From NCBI GenBank assembly GCA_913063435.1, contig CAJXYI010000011.1, positions 1 through 57,269 on the forward strand: DNA of 57,269 nucleotides, written 5' to 3'. Positions 1,963-31,737 of the stretch are shown in pieces (within the stretch, counting starts at the first letter, position 1; every line of letters starts with the position of its first letter). Source of the DNA: an uncultured Actinomycetales bacterium (lineage in GTDB: Bacteria; Actinomycetota; Actinomycetes; S36-B12). The translations under genes were made by a program, and so were the position numbers. The notes under the pieces are model-generated. The model saw nothing but the letters and a program-made list of their open reading frames with translations, was not told the DNA's origin and made no database searches.

Positions 1963-2375
1963 ATGCGCTCCATAGGCTGGCCCGTCACTTCGCTGATCAG
2001 GTCGAAGTCCTTATCTCGATGCAGGACAGTGAGTTGGCGGGTCTCTGCTGTCGCCGCAACCAGAAGATCAGGTATTGACGCCGCCCGGTGTTGACCACGA
2101 TCAGCGAGCAGCGCCATCACCTCCATGGCTCGATCCTCGATCATGGGCGTCAACGATTCGATGATGAACGCCGTCATCGGGGGCGTTGCGAGCAATCGGC
2201 GAAGGTCCGCGCCGTTGCGTGCGGTGAAGGCCACTTCGAGACGGGTCGCGGTGCTCAGGTGGACCAGCCCACGTTGGATTCGCTCCTCCCACAGCTCCAC
2301 CTCCGCGGAGCGGGGGAGCACCGCGAGCGCCGAAGCATCGATCAACCACGGCCCCGTGTCGGGTGTTGCCATCAT
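1959..2375 (-). CDS. vapC: Type II toxin, VapC-family PIN-domain ribonuclease (second copy)
   Basis: This is a 138-residue PIN-domain protein of a different subtype from its neighbour. The acidic residues are D13 (LIDASAL), E47 (RLEVAF), D103 (IPDLLVA) and D121/D123 (HRDKDFD). The ATG at 2375 is preferred over longer readings because it overlaps the antitoxin stop (ATGA), the normal layout of vapBC operons. A second in-frame ATG follows immediately. The stop codon TAG is the reverse complement of the same CTAG that ends the neighbouring toxin, so the two toxin genes meet tail to tail with a 4-nt overlap. Confidence 0.92.
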
Positions 2376-2590
2376 TCCCAGGCCTGTCGGCGAATCTCGG
2401 GATCTGCGAGATCTCCGGTGGCCTCGGCGAACCACGTCCAATCGACGCGGCCCACCGACGTCGGGCGTTGGGCCTGCTCGGTGATGAGACGGCGAAGGAA
2501 CTCCACTCGACTCAGTCCTGCCTTTTCGGCCTGCACATCGATCGCCTGGACGACCGGGTCGGGCACGCCTCGGACGAGAAGATCAGCCAT
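2372..2590 (-). CDS. vapB: Antitoxin, VapB/FitA-type ribbon-helix-helix
   Basis: This 72-residue protein starts ADLLVRGVPDPVVQAID, typical of FitA-like ribbon-helix-helix antitoxins: an N-terminal beta strand followed by two helices (LSRVEFLRRLITEQ). The acidic, aromatic C-terminus (VDWTWFAEATGDLADPEI) is the presumed toxin-binding tail. The ATG at 2590 lies 1 nt from a 30-bp perfect inverted repeat containing a TATCAT -10 box, so the transcript is probably leaderless and the protein probably represses itself there. It is translationally coupled to the VapC gene. Confidence 0.9.
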   Translation of the reverse strand: MADLLVRGVPDPVVQAIDVQAEKAGLSRVEFLRRLITEQAQRPTSVGRVDWTWFAEATGDLADPEIRRQAWE

Positions 2591-2591
2591 C

Positions 2592-2621
2592 CCATAATGA
2601 TATCACTAGATATCATTATGG
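2592..2621 (-). promoter_or_regulatory. Autoregulatory operator of vapBC: perfect 13-bp inverted repeat
   Basis: The arms are CCATAATGATATC (2592-2604) and GATATCATTATGG (2609-2621) with the 4-nt spacer ACTA, and the symmetry is perfect. The repeat is strikingly AT-rich for this GC-rich genome. A candidate -10 box TATCAT (2597-2602, minus strand) lies inside it, 6 nt from the antitoxin ATG. A dimeric VapBC complex bound here would block RNA polymerase. Confidence 0.8.
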
Positions 2622-2639
2622 TCTCGTGGTCACTCCCGC

Positions 2640-3853
<1,214 letters not shown>

Positions 3854-20816: not shown

Positions 20817-21056
20817 GTGAGCACATCGCGGCCCCCCGCCGGAGATCGCCTGCTGCGCGCCGGTGCGATCGTGACCGTGATCGGGATCATCGCCACCATG
20901 GTCGCGATGCTTCCCCTGGTCATTCCCAACCTGACCCTGCCGCCGGCGATGTGGTTCGCGTCCATGATCATCGGGATCGGTCTGGCGATGGTCATCGCCG
21001 GCTTCGCGGTGTCGGCTCGCGCTCGCGGCCGCTCCTCCCGCCAGAGCGACAACTAA
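20817..21056 (+). CDS. Small two-helix membrane protein
   Basis: This 79-residue protein has two predicted membrane helices (AGAIVTVIGIIATMVAMLPL and MWFASMIIGIGLAMVIAGFA) and a basic cytoplasmic tail (RARGRSSRQSDN). It is hypothetical, and similar small proteins occur at this position in other actinomycetes. The GTG at 20817 rather than 20811 is chosen from the spacing to TAGTCT. The stop overlaps that of the convergent S53 peptidase gene by 4 nt. Confidence 0.7.
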   Translation: MSTSRPPAGDRLLRAGAIVTVIGIIATMVAMLPLVIPNLTLPPAMWFASMIIGIGLAMVIAGFAVSARARGRSSRQSDN

Positions 21057-22861
21057 TCGGTCAACCCCAGCAGGACGTCGAAGTTCGGTGCCCCCAGCCC
21101 GCTGGCCATGTCGTATCCCTTGATAGCCGGGCAGCAGGCCGGCTCGGGATCGACCATGTTGTCGCCGTCGACGATGTCATAGAACGCCGAGCTGTAGTCG
21201 CTTTGCGCGAGGGAATACAGCCAGGGGTTCAAGAATCCCAGCCGACCCTTCTCAGAGGCGATCAGGGCGATGTTCGCCGCGGTGAACGGAGACGCCGCGC
21301 TCGTGCCACCGATCGGTGCGATTCCCCATTCCGCGCCCGGAGGCAGCGCCGGCCAAGGTCCGGTGGCGTACTGCGCCGGGGTCATCACCACCGGCCAGCC
21401 CGGGCTGACCGCGGCATGCGCCACGACATCGGGAACGAGTCGCCGATCGGCCGAGCTGATCGACCGCTGATACCACGGCGAGGGGTAGGGGGCAGGCGCG
21501 CCACCACCGCCAGCCTGAAGCTCCGGATCCCAGGTGGTGGAGTTCCACACGACCTCATTCACCCGCTCGTTGCCCTCGCCCAGGATGATGCGCGTTCCCC
21601 CGACGGCTGTCGCCCATGGGGATGCGGCGGGGTAATCGGCCTGGATCGACGCATCCGTTCCGCCACCGTGCAGACAGCCACTGGACCCTGAATCGCCCGC
21701 GGCGATGAGCACCGACGTCCCCACGATCCCGGCGAACGCGAACAGGTCATCGACATACCGACGCGGCTGCCAGTCGCCGGATTCCTTCAACTCGGATACG
21801 CATTCTCCATAGGACAGGGTCAGCACATCCGGGTCGAGCACGGTCAGCGCGGTGGTGTAGCCCTGGATCAGGTTCTGCATGAAGGACAGGCTCCCCACCG
21901 TTTCGACGAACGCGACCGCCGGCGCATCGGGTAGCACCGCGGTCGACACCTGGACGTCGAGGTTGCTTTCCACGCCGATCGTCGGTCCGGCAATGACCGG
22001 CAGATCACCGATTCCCGGCGCTCCCACGACGTCGAGGCGCGGCACCTCGTAGTCGAAGCATTCACCGGCGACCTCAGCGAGACCGGGATCGAAGACCTGT
22101 CCGATTCCGATGACCCCGAGACGAGCACCCTCACCGCTGATTCCCTGTTCATGCAGGGCCGTCGTGCCGTACGGCACATGCAGTTGATTCGGTGAGTACA
22201 TGTAGTCGCGGTTGCCCTCGAGGATGCAGTCCGTACCGGGACCGAATGGGGTGCCCTCGTTAGTCGGTGGCTCGACCGCAGCCGAAACCAACTGCGGCAC
22301 CACCTCCGTGTCGATGGGGAACACCTTCTGTACGACGCCACTCAGCACATCCGGAACCTCCGGGGCGTAGTTTCCGGTGTCATCGGTGTCGGGGATGTAG
22401 ATCGACAGCGCCTTGGGGGCAGCGGGAACCTCGATGAATTTCCGGCCGTAGATCGCCACCCAGGTCTCCAGCGGGGCCGTGAGCTCAGCCGTGAGCCCGG
22501 TGGCGTCGAAGGCCACGTCGATACCCAGTTCTCGCGCGCGCTCGCGCAGGTCCCGGCGCGCCTTGCGAGTGGCACCGACCTGTGCAGCCGCCTGCTCGAG
22601 GGTGAGGAACTGCCGGAACCTCCGGCCATCGGGACGCGACACCTGGCGGGCCAAGCGACGCAGCGCTGGTCGGTCGTAGGGCACGACCGCGGTGAAGGTC
22701 GCGGTCGGCACGTCATCCTCGGATGTCGTCACCCAGGAAGCGGTCGTGGAGGCCGATTCCTCGGCGGAGGAGGTCGTCGCGGTCGCGGTCAACGACCCAG
22801 CGAGCAGGGCCCCGGAGGCCACAGCGATCGGAAGGACTCGGATAGTTCGGCGCAGGGTCAT
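21053..22861 (-). CDS. Secreted S53 (sedolisin/kumamolisin) peptidase
   Basis: This 602-residue acid serine-carboxyl protease has a signal peptide at about 1-33. The pro-kumamolisin activation domain spans about 55-190 (VVPYDRPALRRLARQVSRPD, RQFLTLEQ). The catalytic domain follows, with E298 and D302 (GVESNLDVQ), the oxyanion D390 (AAGDSGSSG) and nucleophile S521 (GGTSAASP). A C-terminal Ca2+ site is indicated by FYDIVDGDN and KGYDMASGLGAPN. All key residues are present, so activity at low pH is expected. The start has AGGTG 7 nt upstream and lies 8 bp after the HAD gene stop, so the two are probably cotranscribed. Confidence 0.94.
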   Translation of the reverse strand: MTLRRTIRVLPIAVASGALLAGSLTATATTSSAEESASTTASWVTTSEDDVPTATFTAVVPYDRPALRRLARQVSRPDGRRFRQFLTLEQAAAQVGATRKARRDLRERARELGIDVAFDATGLTAELTAPLETWVAIYGRKFIEVPAAPKALSIYIPDTDDTGNYAPEVPDVLSGVVQKVFPIDTEVVPQLVSAAVEPPTNEGTPFGPGTDCILEGNRDYMYSPNQLHVPYGTTALHEQGISGEGARLGVIGIGQVFDPGLAEVAGECFDYEVPRLDVVGAPGIGDLPVIAGPTIGVESNLDVQVSTAVLPDAPAVAFVETVGSLSFMQNLIQGYTTALTVLDPDVLTLSYGECVSELKESGDWQPRRYVDDLFAFAGIVGTSVLIAAGDSGSSGCLHGGGTDASIQADYPAASPWATAVGGTRIILGEGNERVNEVVWNSTTWDPELQAGGGGAPAPYPSPWYQRSISSADRRLVPDVVAHAAVSPGWPVVMTPAQYATGPWPALPPGAEWGIAPIGGTSAASPFTAANIALIASEKGRLGFLNPWLYSLAQSDYSSAFYDIVDGDNMVDPEPACCPAIKGYDMASGLGAPNFDVLLGLTD

Positions 22862-23519: not shown

Positions 23520-23549
23520 GGGGGCCGATAGGCGGGTGACACCCCTCGG

Positions 23550-23555
23550 TAACGT
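23550..23555 (+). promoter_or_regulatory. -10 box of helicase-associated protein gene
   Basis: TAACGT lies 7 nt before the ATG at 23563 and supports that start over the GTG at 23536. Confidence 0.4.
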
Positions 23556-23562
23556 TGCAAGG

Positions 23563-25830
23563 ATGCGCAGCCTCGCCGATGATCTGCGGCACCGCGACGA
23601 TGACGCCCTCGCTGAGTTGCTGCGCGCCCGACCCGATCTGCTGCACCCAGTGCCGGTCGACATCGCAGCGTTGGCCACGCGCGCGGGATCGGCCGCATCG
23701 GTGGCTCGCGCCCTCGACACCCTCGACCGGTTCACCCTGCAGGTCGCCGAGACGCTCGCCGCGCTCGACGAGCCGACATCCGCCGAGACCATCCGGGCCT
23801 GCTTCGATGCCGACCTGCGCGATGCCGTCGATGCCGCAGTGTCCCGACTGGTATCGCTGGCACTGGTGTGGGGTGAGGATCCGTATCGGATGGTGCGCAC
23901 CGCGCGAGATGCCTTCGGACCGCACCCCGGCGGCCTCGGCCCTTCCTGCGTCGATATCCGCCCGAAACTCGCCGTAGTGACCGCTGAATCCCTGAGCGCC
24001 ACCCTGTCCGAGGCGCCCGACCGAGTGATCGAACTGATCGATTCGATGATGTGGGGCCCACCCGTCGGGCAGGTGGAACGAGCCGACCGTGTGGTCACCA
24101 TCGAGTCGGCGAGCACTCCGATCGAATGGCTGCTGGCTCGGGATCTGCTCGTCGCGCGCGGCCCGAAAACGGTCACACTTCCCCGAGAGGTGGGTCTCGC
24201 GCTGCGAGAGATGCGCACGGGCGCGCCCCGGGTTATCCGCGAGACAGCATGGCCGCCACGTGAGCCGGTCATCGGGCGCGAGCATGCAATCGCCGACATC
24301 GACCGCTCCTGCGGCCAACATGCCCACTCCGCCATCGATGCCATCGCAGAGCTGCTGGAAACCTGGTCGGTTGACGCTCCAGCCGTCTTGCGCAGCGGTG
24401 GTCTGGGGGTGCGCGATCTCGCCGCCGCCGCTCGCACCCTCGACACCGATGAGGCGACCGCCGCGTTCTGGCTCGAACTCAGCCTCGCCGCAGGGCTGCT
24501 CGCCCGTGATGGACAGTTCGATGAAGCATGGCGTCCGACCAAGGCCTATGACGACTGGCTGGCCGACGATCCCAGCGAACGGTGGGCGCATCTGGTGCAG
24601 TCCTGGTGGCGCACGGACCGTGCCCCCGAACTCGTGCGCGGGGCTGCACAGGCCGATCCCGCGCCGCACGCCCTATCCGATGCAGCACGTGTGTCCCACC
24701 TGGACCTCCTGCGCGCCGAGGTTCTGGGGGTTCTCGACGCTGGCCCGCCCGGTGGAGCATGGGATGCCGACGACGTCGTCGGCGTGCTCGATGACCGGCG
24801 GCCTCGACTGCATTCCGCCGCTCGAGCAGGTCACATCCATGCCGTGCTGGATCAAGCGGAACTGCTGGGCGTCACAGGATTTCGCGCGTTGGGTTCCGCC
24901 GGTCGAACTCTCGTCGATGACGCGTCGATCGAGCAACTCGCCGAGGCGATCGCGCCGATGCTGCCTGAACCTGTCGACCAAGTGCTCGTCCAGGGCGATC
25001 TCACCGCGATCGCACCCGGTCCTCTCCGCCTCGATGCTGCGCGGCAGATGCGCCTCCTCGCCGACGTTGAGAGTTCCGGTGCTGCAACGGTGTTCCGCTT
25101 CAGCGAATCGTCACTGCGTCGAGGATTCGATGCCGGACGCGACGCGCAGGACATACTCGCCACGCTCACCGAATTGTCAGCGACTCCCCTGCCGCAAGCG
25201 CTGGAATACCTCGTGGCCGATCTCGGTCGTCGCCACGGGCGACTCCGTGTGGGACTCGCCGGCAGTTATATCCGATCCGAGGACACCGCCCTCGTTCGTG
25301 CGACGTTGGCTGAGACCCACGGCATCGATCTCGTCGAACTCGCCCCCGGGGTGCTCGTCAGCACCGAGCCTCCCGATCGCGTCCTCGCCGCGCTGCGAGC
25401 TTCCGGTTTGGCACCCTTGGCCGAGACCCCCGATGGACGCGTGTTGGCGGAACCCACCCGACCCCAGCGAGCACCCACCCGATCGCCAATCGGTGAATCA
25501 CGATCATCACCCCGATCGGCATTGATCGATGCTGCAGTCTCGACGCTGCGGGCCACGGCCGGTGACCCTCGAAGCGATTCAGCAGACTCAGACGCCGACT
25601 CCGTGATCCCGAGCGGATCGACGAGTCAGACGCTGACAACCCTGCGCGATGCGTTATCCCAGGGTCAGGTCGTGCGACTGGGTTACGTCGATTCCGATGG
25701 CGATCAACGGTCACTGCTGGCCACCCCGGTCCGACTGGCTCCGGGAACCTTGACCGCGATGGATCACAGCGTGGGTCAGGTCCGCGCGTTCACCCTGGCC
25801 CGCATCACCGGCGCGGTCATCGCTCGATGA
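23563..25830 (+). CDS. Helicase-associated (Helicase_C_3/WYL-like) domain protein
   Basis: This 755-residue protein of a conserved actinobacterial family is usually found close to the XPB helicase gene. It starts RSLADDLRHRDDDALAELLR, a helical segment typical of the family. The middle part reads as winged-helix units, a Helicase_C_3-type region covers about 470-640 (VDQVLVQGDLTAIAPGPL, VFRFSESSLRRGFDAG), and a WYL-like strand segment ends the protein (VVRLGYVDSDGDQRSLLATPVRL). No helicase motor motifs are present. A role in DNA repair with XPB is inferred from the conserved neighbourhood. The 3' end overlaps the convergent racemase gene by 14 bp. Confidence 0.82.
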   Translation: MRSLADDLRHRDDDALAELLRARPDLLHPVPVDIAALATRAGSAASVARALDTLDRFTLQVAETLAALDEPTSAETIRACFDADLRDAVDAAVSRLVSLALVWGEDPYRMVRTARDAFGPHPGGLGPSCVDIRPKLAVVTAESLSATLSEAPDRVIELIDSMMWGPPVGQVERADRVVTIESASTPIEWLLARDLLVARGPKTVTLPREVGLALREMRTGAPRVIRETAWPPREPVIGREHAIADIDRSCGQHAHSAIDAIAELLETWSVDAPAVLRSGGLGVRDLAAAARTLDTDEATAAFWLELSLAAGLLARDGQFDEAWRPTKAYDDWLADDPSERWAHLVQSWWRTDRAPELVRGAAQADPAPHALSDAARVSHLDLLRAEVLGVLDAGPPGGAWDADDVVGVLDDRRPRLHSAARAGHIHAVLDQAELLGVTGFRALGSAGRTLVDDASIEQLAEAIAPMLPEPVDQVLVQGDLTAIAPGPLRLDAARQMRLLADVESSGAATVFRFSESSLRRGFDAGRDAQDILATLTELSATPLPQALEYLVADLGRRHGRLRVGLAGSYIRSEDTALVRATLAETHGIDLVELAPGVLVSTEPPDRVLAALRASGLAPLAETPDGRVLAEPTRPQRAPTRSPIGESRSSPRSALIDAAVSTLRATAGDPRSDSADSDADSVIPSGSTSQTLTTLRDALSQGQVVRLGYVDSDGDQRSLLATPVRLAPGTLTAMDHSVGQVRAFTLARITGAVIAR

Positions 25831-26947
25831 GGGCGCTCCATGTCGTCAACTCCGCAAGGATCTCGGGAATCGGATCGACCCCGATCCCGGGTGCGGTCGG
25901 GACGGTGAGACGTCCATCGTCGAGGATGAATGGCGGGGTGACGTCGACCGCGTAGTACCGATTCGAGGCGCTGGTGTCACCGGGCAGCGTGAATCCCGGG
26001 AGCGCTGCGAGACCGACATTGGCCGCCCGCCCGACGCCGGTCTCGAGCATCCCCCCGCACCAGACGGGAATACCCCGCTCACGACACAGGTCGTGGATCT
26101 GCACCGCGGTGAGATATCCACCCACGCGTCCCGGCTTGATGTTGATCACCGATGTCGCCTCGACCGCGAGCGCTGTCTCGGCCACGGCCACCGAGGTGAT
26201 CGATTCGTCCAAGCACACCGGGGTGGTGATCTCACGCGCGAGGGCTGCGTGACCGAGCAGATCATCCTCAGGCAGTGGTTGCTCCACCAGCAGCAGGTCG
26301 AAGGGGTCCATCGCGGCGAGCAGGTCGCCATCGCTTCGGGTGTAGGCCTGGTTGGCGTCGGTCTGCAGCAGCATGTCCGGCCATGTCTGGCGCACGGCAC
26401 GAACCGGCTCCACATCCCAGCCCGGTTCGATCTTCAGTTTGATGCGTCGATAACCAGCATCGACATACCCGGAGACCTCATCGAGGAGTTCTGAGATCGA
26501 TTCGCTGGGCGGAATGCCCACGCTCACCCCGCAGTCGACCTCATCGCGTATCTGTTCGGGGTATTGCGCGCCGAGGAAGTCAACCAGTCGGATATTCCGT
26601 ACTCGCAGCCAGGCATCGAGGATCGCGGTCTCCAGCGCGGTCTTCGCCATCGGGTGACCCTGCACGCGTACGAAACGTCCATGTGCCTCGAGGGGATCGG
26701 CCGTGCCGTCACGCAGCACCAGCGGCACCAGGTGCTCGGTGAGCACATCGACGCAGCCGTCGACATATTCATAGGAATAACCCGGCCACGACATCGCGAC
26801 GCATTCCCCCCAGCCGGACACGCCCTCGCTGGTAATGGCCTCCACCAGCAGGATGTCACGCGTCTGCTGAGTACCGAAGGATGTGCGAAACGGTCGAACG
26901 AGTGGCATGTCGATGCGGTGCAGGCGAATACGGTCGATGCGCGTCAA
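25817..26947 (-). CDS. N-succinylamino-acid racemase / o-succinylbenzoate synthase (enolase superfamily)
   Basis: This 376-residue muconate-lactonising-type enzyme has the acid/base lysines in RRIKLKIEP (K170, K172) and K271 (NIKPGRVGG), and metal ligands D197 (QTDAN), E222 (LVEQP) and D247 (CLDES). MenC (OSBS) and N-succinylamino-acid racemase activities occur in the same subgroup and cannot be separated by motif. No other men genes are in the window. The neighbours are a GNAT (overlapping 4 nt) and an M20 hydrolase, exactly the set of the D-to-L amino-acid conversion pathway described in Geobacillus, so NSAR activity is favoured. OSBS or dual function remains possible. Confidence 0.9.
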   Translation of the reverse strand: MTRIDRIRLHRIDMPLVRPFRTSFGTQQTRDILLVEAITSEGVSGWGECVAMSWPGYSYEYVDGCVDVLTEHLVPLVLRDGTADPLEAHGRFVRVQGHPMAKTALETAILDAWLRVRNIRLVDFLGAQYPEQIRDEVDCGVSVGIPPSESISELLDEVSGYVDAGYRRIKLKIEPGWDVEPVRAVRQTWPDMLLQTDANQAYTRSDGDLLAAMDPFDLLLVEQPLPEDDLLGHAALAREITTPVCLDESITSVAVAETALAVEATSVINIKPGRVGGYLTAVQIHDLCRERGIPVWCGGMLETGVGRAANVGLAALPGFTLPGDTSASNRYYAVDVTPPFILDDGRLTVPTAPGIGVDPIPEILAELTTWSALIER

Positions 26948-27762
26948 AGCGATTCTCCTTCGACGGTCGAGGGCCGAAGGACATACGAGCCCTCATCGGT
27001 GATGCCGTCGATAACCCAGCCATCGGCGAATGACCGCTGCAATTGCTCTCGGACATCAAGGCGCCACTGTCGTGCAGCGATGGGGTCCGTGGCTCGCAAC
27101 GTGACGATGTCTTCGGGAGTAGCGACTATTCGAACATCGGATCGCGCACGCACTGCTTCATCTGACAGCGGAGTCAAATTGCCCTCGGCTGCTAGCCGTG
27201 TCCGATCCGAATCGACCGGCCACCACGCAACCAATCGGTCGGAAGGATCACCGGCGTTGATGGCATCGTTCATCTCCCCGTAGAAGTTCTCGTGATACCC
27301 GCGCACCTCGATGCCGAGCTTGACCAGGTTGACGAACGCATTGCGTCGCACCAGCGGGTCGAAGGTCCAGGACACGACGGGGATGTCATGCACCCACGCC
27401 CATGCCCGTTGATGCTGCTTCATCGTCGTCCCAATATGTCGGTTGCGAGCAGCATCGATCACCGCCGACATGTGACTGTGCAGCATCAAGGTGCCGTCTT
27501 CGGCCCGTCCGAGAAATGCGAGGGTCGCCCCGAGTAGGTCCCGACTGGACGAGTCGTATGCCGCCACGCAGTAACCACCCGCGTGGACCAGGGCCCGAAG
27601 CAGGTTCGGGCGGACCTGGGTTGCTCCATCCTCTGCCGGCCACACCACATCGAAGACAGCACGCGCATCTGCCTGACTCTCCGGCGTCGTGAGCTCGACG
27701 ATCTCGATTCCGGCGCGCTCGGCTGAACCCTCAGCGATCCGCCATGCGTATGAGGAGGTCAC
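26944..27762 (-). CDS. GNAT-family acyltransferase, candidate amino-acid N-succinyltransferase
   Basis: This 272-residue COG3375-like protein has an acetyl/acyl-CoA binding segment RNRHIGTTMKQHQRAWA and the family-typical SWTFDPLVRRNAFVNLVKLG. Its gene overlaps the racemase start by 4 nt, so the two are coupled. In the Geobacillus pathway a GNAT N-succinylates D-amino acids before racemisation; that role is inferred here from gene order. The GTG at 27762 is chosen because TAGCGT lies 7 nt upstream. The C-terminal third (about 175-272) is less conserved-looking. Confidence 0.85.
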   Translation of the reverse strand: MTSSYAWRIAEGSAERAGIEIVELTTPESQADARAVFDVVWPAEDGATQVRPNLLRALVHAGGYCVAAYDSSSRDLLGATLAFLGRAEDGTLMLHSHMSAVIDAARNRHIGTTMKQHQRAWAWVHDIPVVSWTFDPLVRRNAFVNLVKLGIEVRGYHENFYGEMNDAINAGDPSDRLVAWWPVDSDRTRLAAEGNLTPLSDEAVRARSDVRIVATPEDIVTLRATDPIAARQWRLDVREQLQRSFADGWVIDGITDEGSYVLRPSTVEGESL

Positions 27763-27769
27763 GCAGGGC

Positions 27770-27775
27770 ACGCTA
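27770..27775 (-). promoter_or_regulatory. -10 box of GNAT-racemase operon
   Basis: TAGCGT on the minus strand lies 7 nt (GCCCTGC) before the GTG at 27762. Confidence 0.45.
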
Positions 27776-27792
27776 GCCCACGGGGTGCGAGC

Positions 27793-28923
27793 ATGGTCCC
27801 CGTGACCGATGCCCTGCTGAGAGACGAGACGTTGACCGACCGCATGCTCGACTCGCTGCGTCGACTCGTCGAGACCGAATCACCCAGCGCCGACCCCGCC
27901 GCGTGCCGGGCCTGCGCTGAGGTCGCAGTCGATGTCATCGGCTCCTGGCTGGGATCACCGGCAACCTTGCTCGAGCATCGTGGGCGCGCCGCCGTACGGT
28001 TCGGGGAGCCTGAACCGCGCGTCCTGCTCATCGGACACCTCGACACCGTGTGGCCGATCGGCACCCTCGAGCGCCTGCCCTGGCGAGTGGACGGTGACCG
28101 CGTCCGCGGGCCGGGGGTCTTCGACATGAAGGCCGGGATCATCCAGGGGATCGCCGCACTCGCCGCACTCGGCTGCCCCGATGGAGTCGGCATGCTCCTT
28201 ACCAGCGACGAGGAGATCGGCTCGGGCACATCGCGCGACCTCATCGAAGCCTCCGCCGCTCGAGCGCAGGCGGTCTTCGTCCTCGAACCCTCCGTCGAGG
28301 GTGAACTGAAGAGCTCACGCAAAGGCACCTCCTGGTACGAGGTCGAGATCATCGGACGCGCGGCACACGCCGGACTCGAACCGGAGAAGGGCATCAATGC
28401 GCTCGTCGAAGCCGCCGCCCTGGTCACCTCCGCCACGACGTGGGGTGATCCCCAACTCGCCACGACCGTGACGCCGACGACGGCCCGAGCCGGGATCACC
28501 GACAACACCGTGCCCGATCGTGCCGTCGTGGGCATCGATGCACGCGCCTGGTCACATGACGAGCAGGTCCGCGTCGACGACCTCATCCGGGGCTGGCAAC
28601 CGATTCATCCGCAGGCGCAACTCAGCGTGATCGCCGGTGGGATCAATCGACCAGCGATGGCCGCGTCAGAGCACCTGCTGGATCTGGCCGTTGCCGCTGC
28701 GTCTTCGCTCGCATTGGGTGATCCCGGTCATCGAGCCGTCGGTGGCGGCAGCGACGGCAACTTCACCGCCGCGATCGGTGCGCCGACACTCGATGGACTG
28801 GGTGCAGTCGGTGACGGCGCGCATGCCGATCATGAATGGGCCAGCGTCGAGGGGATGCGTGAACGTGCCGCCCTGCTGGCAACCCTGATCGAACTCGTTC
28901 TCGCTGAGGAGCCGACGCCATGA
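27793..28923 (+). CDS. M20-family metallohydrolase, candidate N-succinyl-amino-acid desuccinylase
   Basis: This 376-residue zinc peptidase/deacylase belongs to the ArgE/CPG2 group. Zn ligands lie in LLIGHLDTVWP and GPGVFDMKAG, the catalytic Glu in LLTSDEEIGSG, and a later ligand in FVLEPSVEG. The dimerisation domain follows, with GRAAHAGLEPEKGIN. The last ligand region is DGAHADHEW. It is encoded divergently from the GNAT-racemase pair, and together they make up the known D- to L-amino-acid pathway in which the hydrolase removes the N-succinyl group. Its 3' end overlaps the XPB start by 4 nt. The start could also be GTG 27802. Confidence 0.9.
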   Translation: MVPVTDALLRDETLTDRMLDSLRRLVETESPSADPAACRACAEVAVDVIGSWLGSPATLLEHRGRAAVRFGEPEPRVLLIGHLDTVWPIGTLERLPWRVDGDRVRGPGVFDMKAGIIQGIAALAALGCPDGVGMLLTSDEEIGSGTSRDLIEASAARAQAVFVLEPSVEGELKSSRKGTSWYEVEIIGRAAHAGLEPEKGINALVEAAALVTSATTWGDPQLATTVTPTTARAGITDNTVPDRAVVGIDARAWSHDEQVRVDDLIRGWQPIHPQAQLSVIAGGINRPAMAASEHLLDLAVAAASSLALGDPGHRAVGGGSDGNFTAAIGAPTLDGLGAVGDGAHADHEWASVEGMRERAALLATLIELVLAEEPTP

Positions 28924-30563
28924 CCGACGGCCCACTCATCGTCCAAAGCGATAAGACCCTGCTACTCGACGTCGATCACCCCCGTTCGATCGACGCTCGC
29001 CGGGCTATCGCACCCTTCGCCGAACTCGAACGCGCCCCCGAACACATTCACACCTACCGCATCACGCCTCTTGCCCTGTGGAACGCACGTGCTGCCGGCC
29101 ACGATGCCGAGGGTGTCATCGATGTGCTCATCACCTTCTCGCGCTTCCCGGTTCCCCATGCCCTGCTGGTCGACATCGCCGAGACGATGGACCGATATGG
29201 GCGACTTAGCCTCACCCAGCATCCGGTGCACGGACTCGTTCTGATCACCACGGATGTGCCCGTGCTCGAAGAAGTGCTGCGGAATAAGAAGATCGCACCG
29301 ATGGTCGGCAGCCGTGTCGATGACGACACCGTCATCGTGCATCCCAGCGAACGTGGCCATCTCAAGCAGGTGCTCCTCAAACTTGGCTGGCCTGCCGAGG
29401 ATCATGCCGGATACGTCGACGGCGAAGCACACTCGATCGCCTTGACCGAAGATGGCTGGCACCTGCGTGATTATCAGCGCGATGCCGTCGAAGGATTCGC
29501 CAGTGGTGGATCCGGGGTCGTAGTACTACCGTGCGGGGCCGGCAAGACCATCGTCGGCGCGGCAGCGATGGCACGGGTGCAATCCACGACGCTCATCCTC
29601 GTGACGAACACCGTATCCGCCCGACAGTGGCGCGATGAACTCATCCAACGCACAACCTTGACCGAGGATGAGATCGGCGAATACTCCGGTGCCCGCAAGG
29701 AGATTCGCCCGGTCACCATCGCGACATACCAGGTGCTCACCACGAAGAAGAAGGGCGCGTATGCGCACCTCGACCTGTTCGACACCCGCGACTGGGGACT
29801 GATCATCTATGACGAGGTGCATTTGCTGCCCGCGCCGATCTTTCGATTCACCGCCGACATCCAATCGCGTCGACGACTCGGCCTGACTGCAACCCTGGTG
29901 CGCGAGGATGGTCGCGAAGGAGATGTCTTCAGCCTGATCGGACCCAAGCGCTACGACGCGCCATGGAAGGAAATCGAGGCGCAGGGGTACATCGCTCCTG
30001 CCGACTGCGTCGAGGTTCGAGTCACACTCCCCGAAAGCGAACGGCTCGTCTATGCCACCGCCGAATCCGAGGATCGCTATCGACTGGCGTCATCGACCCC
30101 TATGAAGAACACCATCGTGGAATCGCTAGTCGCTCAGCACTTCGATGATCAGGTGCTCGTGATCGGGCAATATCTCGATCAACTCGCTGACATCTCCGAG
30201 CACCTCGCAGCCCCGCTCATCACGGGTGAGACCCCGGTGAAGGAACGCGAGCGGCTCTTCGCAGCGTTTCGCTCGGGTGAGGAACGCGTGCTCGTCGTGA
30301 GCAAGGTTGCGAACTTCTCGGTCGACCTGCCCGAGGCCGGCGTGGCGATCCAGGTCAGCGGCGCTTTCGGTTCGCGTCAGGAAGAGGCCCAGCGCCTCGG
30401 GCGCCTCCTGCGCCCCAAGGGAGATAAGCGCACGGCGCACTTCTATGCCGTCGTGGCGCGTGACACCGTCGACGCCGACTTCGCCCAGCATCGCCAACGA
30501 TTCCTCGCCGAGCAGGGTTACTCCTATCGCATCATCGACGCCGAAGACCTCGCTCGCGACTAG
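28920..30563 (+). CDS. DNA repair helicase XPB (SF2)
   Basis: This 547-residue bacterial XPB/Ssl2-type 3'-5' helicase has an N-terminal DRD-like damage-recognition region (about 1-170), Walker A in VVLPCGAGKTIVG (about 200-212), motif II YDEVHLLP, the RED motif in LVREDGREGD, and motifs V/VI in ANFSVDLPEAG and RQEEAQRLGRLLRPKG. It is common in actinobacteria and implicated in DNA damage repair. The ATGA overlap with the M20 gene implies cotranscription, which is probably accidental functionally, since XPB is usually associated with the helicase-associated protein encoded 3 kb upstream. Confidence 0.95.
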   Translation: MTDGPLIVQSDKTLLLDVDHPRSIDARRAIAPFAELERAPEHIHTYRITPLALWNARAAGHDAEGVIDVLITFSRFPVPHALLVDIAETMDRYGRLSLTQHPVHGLVLITTDVPVLEEVLRNKKIAPMVGSRVDDDTVIVHPSERGHLKQVLLKLGWPAEDHAGYVDGEAHSIALTEDGWHLRDYQRDAVEGFASGGSGVVVLPCGAGKTIVGAAAMARVQSTTLILVTNTVSARQWRDELIQRTTLTEDEIGEYSGARKEIRPVTIATYQVLTTKKKGAYAHLDLFDTRDWGLIIYDEVHLLPAPIFRFTADIQSRRRLGLTATLVREDGREGDVFSLIGPKRYDAPWKEIEAQGYIAPADCVEVRVTLPESERLVYATAESEDRYRLASSTPMKNTIVESLVAQHFDDQVLVIGQYLDQLADISEHLAAPLITGETPVKERERLFAAFRSGEERVLVVSKVANFSVDLPEAGVAIQVSGAFGSRQEEAQRLGRLLRPKGDKRTAHFYAVVARDTVDADFAQHRQRFLAEQGYSYRIIDAEDLARD

Positions 30564-31159: not shown

Positions 31160-31363
31160 ATGGCTATGACGCTTCGCCTGCCCGAGGAAGACTCCGCCGC
31201 ACTTGCGCGCATCGCCGAACTTCAATCCCGATCCCAGACTGACGTCATCGTCACCGCGCTGCGGGAATACATCGAGCGCCAGAGCCGGACCGCCCTCATC
31301 GAGCAGGTCATGGACACCCAACTACCGCGGTACGCCGAGGCACTCGAACGCCTCGGCCGATGA
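31160..31363 (+). CDS. Ribbon-helix-helix antitoxin
   Basis: This 67-residue CopG-like protein has a beta-strand start MAMTLRLPEE, then two helices (DSAALARIAELQS, SQTDVIVTALREYIERQSR) and a tail (LPRYAEALERLGR) that probably binds the toxin. It overlaps the doc gene by 4 nt (ATGA). Phd is the usual partner of Doc, but RHH-type antitoxins also pair with Doc toxins in actinobacteria. The leaderless start at 31160 is supported by TATGAT 6 nt upstream. Confidence 0.85.
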   Translation: MAMTLRLPEEDSAALARIAELQSRSQTDVIVTALREYIERQSRTALIEQVMDTQLPRYAEALERLGR

Positions 31364-31737
31364 TCTACCTCACCCTCGAGGAGATCCTCACCGTCGCTGC
31401 ACGAGCCATCGGCAACGACATCGATGTGCGTGACGCCGGTCTGCTGGAATCTGCCCTCGCTCGACCTCAGGCCACGGTCTACGGAGTCGACGCCTACCCG
31501 GATCTGCACTCCAAGACCGCGGCCCTCGCCCTCTCGATCTGCCAGAACCACGCGCTCGTGGACGGGAATAAGCGCCTCGCGCTAGCCGCCATCCTCGTGA
31601 TGCTCGGTGTCAACGGCTGGAACCTGGTCATGTCCAATGACGAGGCATACCACCTCATCATCGCGATGGCCGATGGTGAACTCACCGACGTCAGTGACGT
31701 CGCCGCCCGCTTGAAAGCCGGCTCGCAACCCTCCTGA
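31360..31737 (+). CDS. doc: Doc-family (Fic fold) toxin
   Basis: This 125-residue Doc protein carries the Fic core motif HALVDGNKR (64-72; consensus HxFx(D/E)GNKR, with Leu for Phe) inside an all-helical fold. Doc toxins phosphorylate elongation factor EF-Tu and arrest translation. The upstream RHH gene is the matching antitoxin. The gene ends before a strong bidirectional hairpin terminator shared with groEL. Confidence 0.92.
   Translation: MIYLTLEEILTVAARAIGNDIDVRDAGLLESALARPQATVYGVDAYPDLHSKTAALALSICQNHALVDGNKRLALAAILVMLGVNGWNLVMSNDEAYHLIIAMADGELTDVSDVAARLKAGSQPS

Follow-up and report, generated by a model that had tools for sequence, protein, structure and literature searches.

The window (here the whole analysed stretch of 57,269 nt) carries three open reading frames across positions 25817-28923, which the earlier note had read as genes for a racemase, a GNAT acyltransferase and an M20 hydrolase, and all three were found intact at these coordinates. 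Between their two conserved borders the features are arranged as follows:

23536-25830, + strand: Helicase_C_3/WYL-domain protein (PF13625 and PF13280), a conserved neighbour that forms the left border of the cassette, outside the pathway
25817-26947, - strand: NSAR/OSBS-type enzyme of the enolase superfamily, 376 aa, a probable N-succinylamino-acid racemase (1SJA match, TIGR01928, kept residues)
26126-26137, - strand: codons from the catalytic lysine K271 to R274, the latter the equivalent of Amycolatopsis R266 by alignment
26944-27771, - strand: GNAT acyltransferase, 275 aa, a probable D-amino-acid N-succinyltransferase (AlphaFold model, PF00583 relatives, Geobacillus icigianus GNAT)
27772-27792, no strand: divergent gap of 21 bp between the GNAT and M20 genes (30 bp if GTG 27802 is the M20 start)
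27793-28923, + strand: M20 metallohydrolase, carboxypeptidase-G2-like, 376 aa, a probable N-succinyl-L-amino-acid desuccinylase (PF01546 and PF07687, carboxypeptidase G2, Streptomyces M20)
28920-30563, + strand: XPB-type DNA repair helicase (NF045503, 863.8 bits), a conserved neighbour that forms the right border of the cassette, outside the pathway

The coupling of racemase and GNAT genes by a 4-nt overlap, also claimed earlier, is seen as TTGA at 26944-26947, where the TTG start codon of the racemase gene (26947) overlaps the GNAT stop codon. The GNAT gene starts at GTG 27771, and the M20 gene does diverge from it on the + strand; the 30-bp gap originally given applies only to an M20 start at GTG 27802, and a start at ATG 27793 leaves 21 bp. 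The last 4 nt of the M20 gene (28920-28923) are shared with the start of the XPB-type helicase gene, and this metabolic hydrolase and DNA repair helicase are therefore probably cotranscribed; M20 genes beside XPB genes are widespread in the order. Two further genes of the window were noted in passing. A small Fic/DOC-family protein (PF02661) with an H-x-x-x-DGNKR motif is encoded between the XPB gene and groEL (31360-31737, + strand), and a 602-aa secreted protease that matches subtilases weakly (PF00082), with a layout resembling that of pro-kumamolisin (S53) peptidases, is encoded at 21053-22861 (- strand).

The racemase and its menC label

A search of the PDB placed the Amycolatopsis NSAR/OSBS (1SJA, 4A6G, 7S8W) as the top solved relatives of the window racemase (445 bits and 58% identity to 1SJA); next came other chains whose deposited name is N-acylamino acid racemase, and the Listeria-type lin2664. 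We aligned it with the Amycolatopsis, Geobacillus, Streptomyces, Arthrobacter, Priestia and Deinococcus members and with a dedicated MenC, and the claim that all catalytic residues are present holds: the catalytic lysine pair K172 and K271 (Amycolatopsis K163 and K263) and the metal ligands D197, E222 and D247 (Amycolatopsis D189, E214 and D239) are kept. The window enzyme also shares Amycolatopsis R266, as R274, and arginine stands there in the Geobacillus, Streptomyces, Arthrobacter, Priestia and Deinococcus members as well; chain 7s8w is unlike 1SJA at this position. R266 is named as a second-shell residue with a role in NSAR specificity in the title of Truong et al. 2021, as listed in PMC10975908. 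A difference from the Amycolatopsis enzyme lies at its position 323, Phe there and Tyr in the window enzyme; the G291 site is unchanged. From these similarities the gene at 25817-26947 probably encodes an N-succinylamino-acid racemase. NSAR/OSBS enzymes are catalytically promiscuous (PMC4215206), and the substrate therefore cannot be fixed from sequence alone.

The same protein scores 312 bits, above cut-off, with the NCBIfam equivalog TIGR01928 (menC_lowGC_arch), and public records of its relatives read "menC: o-succinylbenzoate synthase", just as had been expected of default annotation. Could the window gene then be a true menC that makes o-succinylbenzoate for menaquinone, with incidental neighbours? 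Its passing of TIGR01928 and the labels of its relatives speak for this, as does the assignment of OSBS as the biological function of the Amycolatopsis relative (PMC4215206). The search for men genes that the earlier note had proposed as a check gave a different picture. In the same genome MenD (368 bits) lies on another contig, and the genome's second enolase-superfamily match adjoins it; open reading frames and NCBIfam scans there revealed menG, menF, menD, menC, menB, menE and menA together within ~12 kb (menE under its curated cut-off, all others above the cut-off of some model). The MenC of this cluster is of the actinobacterial type (332.8 bits to PRK02901) and is placed between MenD and MenB. 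It shares the enolase superfamily and a partial alignment with the window enzyme and differs from it in its ~31% identity, its location in the men cluster and the Pro, not Arg, at the R266 position. Since this complete cluster has its own MenC, and since a dedicated MenC is present across the order (152/166 genomes) with or without the racemase, the genome has no need of the window gene as a menC; the gene is neither located with men genes nor the sole OSBS candidate of its genome. A dedicated MenC accompanies 91 of the 97 racemase-bearing genomes, the six without a match being draft genomes, and presence of the racemase follows the GNAT (below) and not the men genes. We therefore reject a menaquinone role and regard true menC function as highly improbable; the separate menC favours NSAR. 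The futalosine pathway was likewise rejected as a menaquinone route, as no PF02621 match was found in the genome.

The GNAT and M20 proteins and the proposed route

The GNAT sequence by itself gave no Pfam match, no NCBIfam match and nothing significant in the PDB with phmmer, and because such single-sequence scans were uninformative its assignment required a family alignment and a structural model. Among 25 members of its family, 16 match PF00583. The AlphaFold model (pLDDT 92.3, pTM 0.88) retrieved N-acetyltransferases as its top Foldseek matches in the PDB (TM-score <=0.83 by target length), and by this predicted structure the protein at 26944-27771 has a GNAT fold. The invariant core of the family includes W134, D137, P138, N143, N147, Y163, G164, D177 and R178. 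The family also includes the Geobacillus icigianus GNAT, 33% identical to the window protein, and the latter is probably a D-amino-acid N-succinyltransferase.

The third protein has PF01546 and PF07687 in Pfam scans, and its best PDB relative is carboxypeptidase G2 (CPG2), with which it aligns at the CPG2-type metal and catalytic residues H82, D111, E140, E141, E165 and H344. Its best NCBIfam models, PRK07338, PRK07473 and PRK06133, are all under cut-off. We considered whether it is the direct equivalent of the Geobacillus M20D amidohydrolase and rejected this on the subfamily scores: with TIGR01891 (cut-off 153.75) the window protein scores 34.7 bits and the Geobacillus M20 284.6 bits, and the two are 30% identical over 145 aa only. 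Its counterpart in an M20-GNAT-menC operon of Streptomyces is 49% identical to it over nearly the full length. Homology suggests that it is probably an N-succinyl-L-amino-acid desuccinylase, and it is the least tightly linked of the three members.

Taken together, there is a good probability that the three genes constitute an N-succinyl-dependent route for conversion of D- to L-amino acids, a reading built on gene content, intact active sites, order-wide GNAT-NSAR linkage, occurrence of all three genes together in other phyla, and the separate MenC. The GNAT would transfer succinyl from succinyl-CoA onto the amino group of D-amino acids; NSAR would convert N-succinyl-D- and N-succinyl-L-amino acids into one another, with K172 and K271 as the partners in a 1,1-proton transfer on a metal-bound enolate; and the M20 enzyme would hydrolyse the N-succinyl-L form and so draw the reaction towards the free L-amino acid. 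We infer the substrates, acyl group, stereospecificities, direction and physiological role of this route from sequence, and the words "complete" and "D-to-L" in the earlier note likewise describe predicted activity. RpiR/MurR-type regulators, amino-acid ABC transporters and a beta-lactamase-family hydrolase stand beside the GNAT-NSAR pair elsewhere, and salvage of D-amino acids, perhaps from peptidoglycan, would fit such company and is the likely purpose.

Linkage across the order

Among 166 genomes of the order the GNAT is present in 99 and NSAR in 97; 94 have both, five the GNAT alone, three NSAR alone and 64 neither. With only eight discordant genomes this co-occurrence gives a Fisher p of ~6e-36, uncorrected for shared ancestry. 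Of the 94 genomes with both, 88 have the two genes as direct neighbours on the same strand, with the GNAT first in 86 and a median gap of 17 bp, an arrangement far beyond chance. The window-type M20 is found in 69/166 genomes, and these include 63 of the 94 with GNAT and NSAR and 6 of the remaining 72 (also uncorrected for shared ancestry); 31 genomes have the pair without this M20 and three have the M20 without the pair.

The 31 genomes with a pair that lacks a close M20 are one argument for a rival reading, in which the pair handles different N-acyl groups (as in N-acetylation) or works in a different direction, such as from L to D. The acyl groups that NSAR enzymes tolerate include N-acetyl, N-formyl and N-carbamoyl, among others, and L- and D-specific succinylases both exist (PMC7431475). 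The native Tyr at the F323 site is, moreover, the residue of an engineered Amycolatopsis racemase variant, G291D/F323Y (PMC7431475), but the G291 site of the window enzyme is unchanged. Against such alternative chemistry, the NSAR of Geobacillus kaustophilus has been employed alongside an L-succinylase from the same species (PMC7431475), and both the GNAT and the NSAR of the window have homologues in the Geobacillus gene set. We consider the alternative unlikely and retain the N-succinyl-dependent D-to-L route.

Fifty neighbourhoods were read, and these define a conserved slot with the order cold-shock gene, Helicase_C_3/WYL gene, [NSAR-GNAT, M20], XPB gene and groEL. The slot is kept with the M20 only (G031, G032 and G130), with an NSAR-like gene only (G019), with GNAT-M20 and NSAR elsewhere in the genome (G002 and G003), and with NSAR-GNAT and no M20 (genera g2 and g18). 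Genus g39 belongs to another family and has small genomes (1.1-1.8 Mb); its NSAR-GNAT pair is located away from the usual slot, and no window-type M20 is near the pair at loci L061-L065, L067 and L068. At two loci (L169 4935-8021 in G002 and L171 4591-7808 in G059) the out-of-slot NSAR gene lies directly downstream of a same-strand gene for a 660-700-aa protein, one of the Abhydrolase_9 family and the other without a Pfam match.

The three genomes in which the M20 gene lies between the helicase genes but GNAT and NSAR are both absent, and the 4-nt overlap of M20 with XPB, could mean that the pathway comprises the GNAT and NSAR only and that the M20 is an unrelated hydrolase belonging with the XPB gene. 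However, the same M20 type leads an overlapping M20-GNAT-menC run in Streptomyces, GNAT-M20 is retained in G002 and G003 although NSAR has relocated, and across the order M20 is strongly associated with the GNAT-NSAR pair. An unrelated M20 is thus quite improbable, and we keep the enzyme as the third step of the proposed route.

Other lineages and known systems

Members of the GNAT family lie beside or near "menC" on plasmids of Priestia, Sulfitobacter, Deinococcus, Arthrobacter and Streptomyces. Of the 80 best GNAT loci in named genomes, among them Bacillales and Chloroflexota, 58 have NSAR close by and 46 an M20, the latter counted with an M20D profile; an earlier count of 34/88 was too low because its profile was built solely from carboxypeptidase-G2-like members. 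The M20s of these named loci are all of the M20D type, and the window type accompanies GNAT-menC on Streptomyces and Arthrobacter plasmids. It is about an even chance that two M20 subfamilies, M20D in Bacillales and the CPG2-like type in the window's order, Streptomyces and Arthrobacter, were recruited independently to finish one GNAT-NSAR pathway, which would make the latter an uncharacterised type of L-specific desuccinylase.

The route and its gene set are already known from Geobacillus. The present analysis contributes a firm case from the window's order, which the PRK02901-type MenC and the NF045503-type XPB mark as probably actinobacterial, together with a separate MenC and a third enzyme from another M20 subfamily than that of Geobacillus. 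Automatic annotation by TIGR01928 as "menC" assigns the wrong pathway, and the neighbourhood and the second menC correct it across the order and several phyla. No curated Pfam or NCBIfam model recognises the window GNAT, so a model of the GNAT family would help to separate NSAR from menC. The carboxypeptidase-G2-like M20 is, in addition, a candidate new desuccinylase for L-amino-acid production.

Comparison with Geobacillus bears out part of the earlier note, which had equated the three genes with the Geobacillus gene set. An N-succinylamino-acid racemase pathway was reportedly described in Geobacillus kaustophilus by Sakai et al. in 2006 (pmid 16584181, a title listed in PMC8762209), and GNAT, NSAR and M20 occur together there as in the window. 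We measured homology on the genes of Geobacillus icigianus, where M20D (334-1503), GNAT (about 1484-2317) and NSAR (2314-3438) have overlapping ends, and it is this overlapping M20D-GNAT-NSAR run that connects the genes of the window with the reported route. The GNAT (above) and NSAR (46% identity) are homologous, as the note implied; the M20 is not orthologous to M20D. The Geobacillus M20D is an amidohydrolase within one overlapping run, whereas the window M20 is CPG2-like and divergent; M20D orthology is a trait of the Geobacillus version and not a requirement of the pathway. The M20-GNAT-menC run on a plasmid of Streptomyces sp. SYP-A7193 (NZ_CP045548.1) has the same three families, including the 49% identical M20; unlike in the window, the genes there overlap along a single strand and follow a gene for a dipeptidyl-peptidase-like "serine hydrolase".
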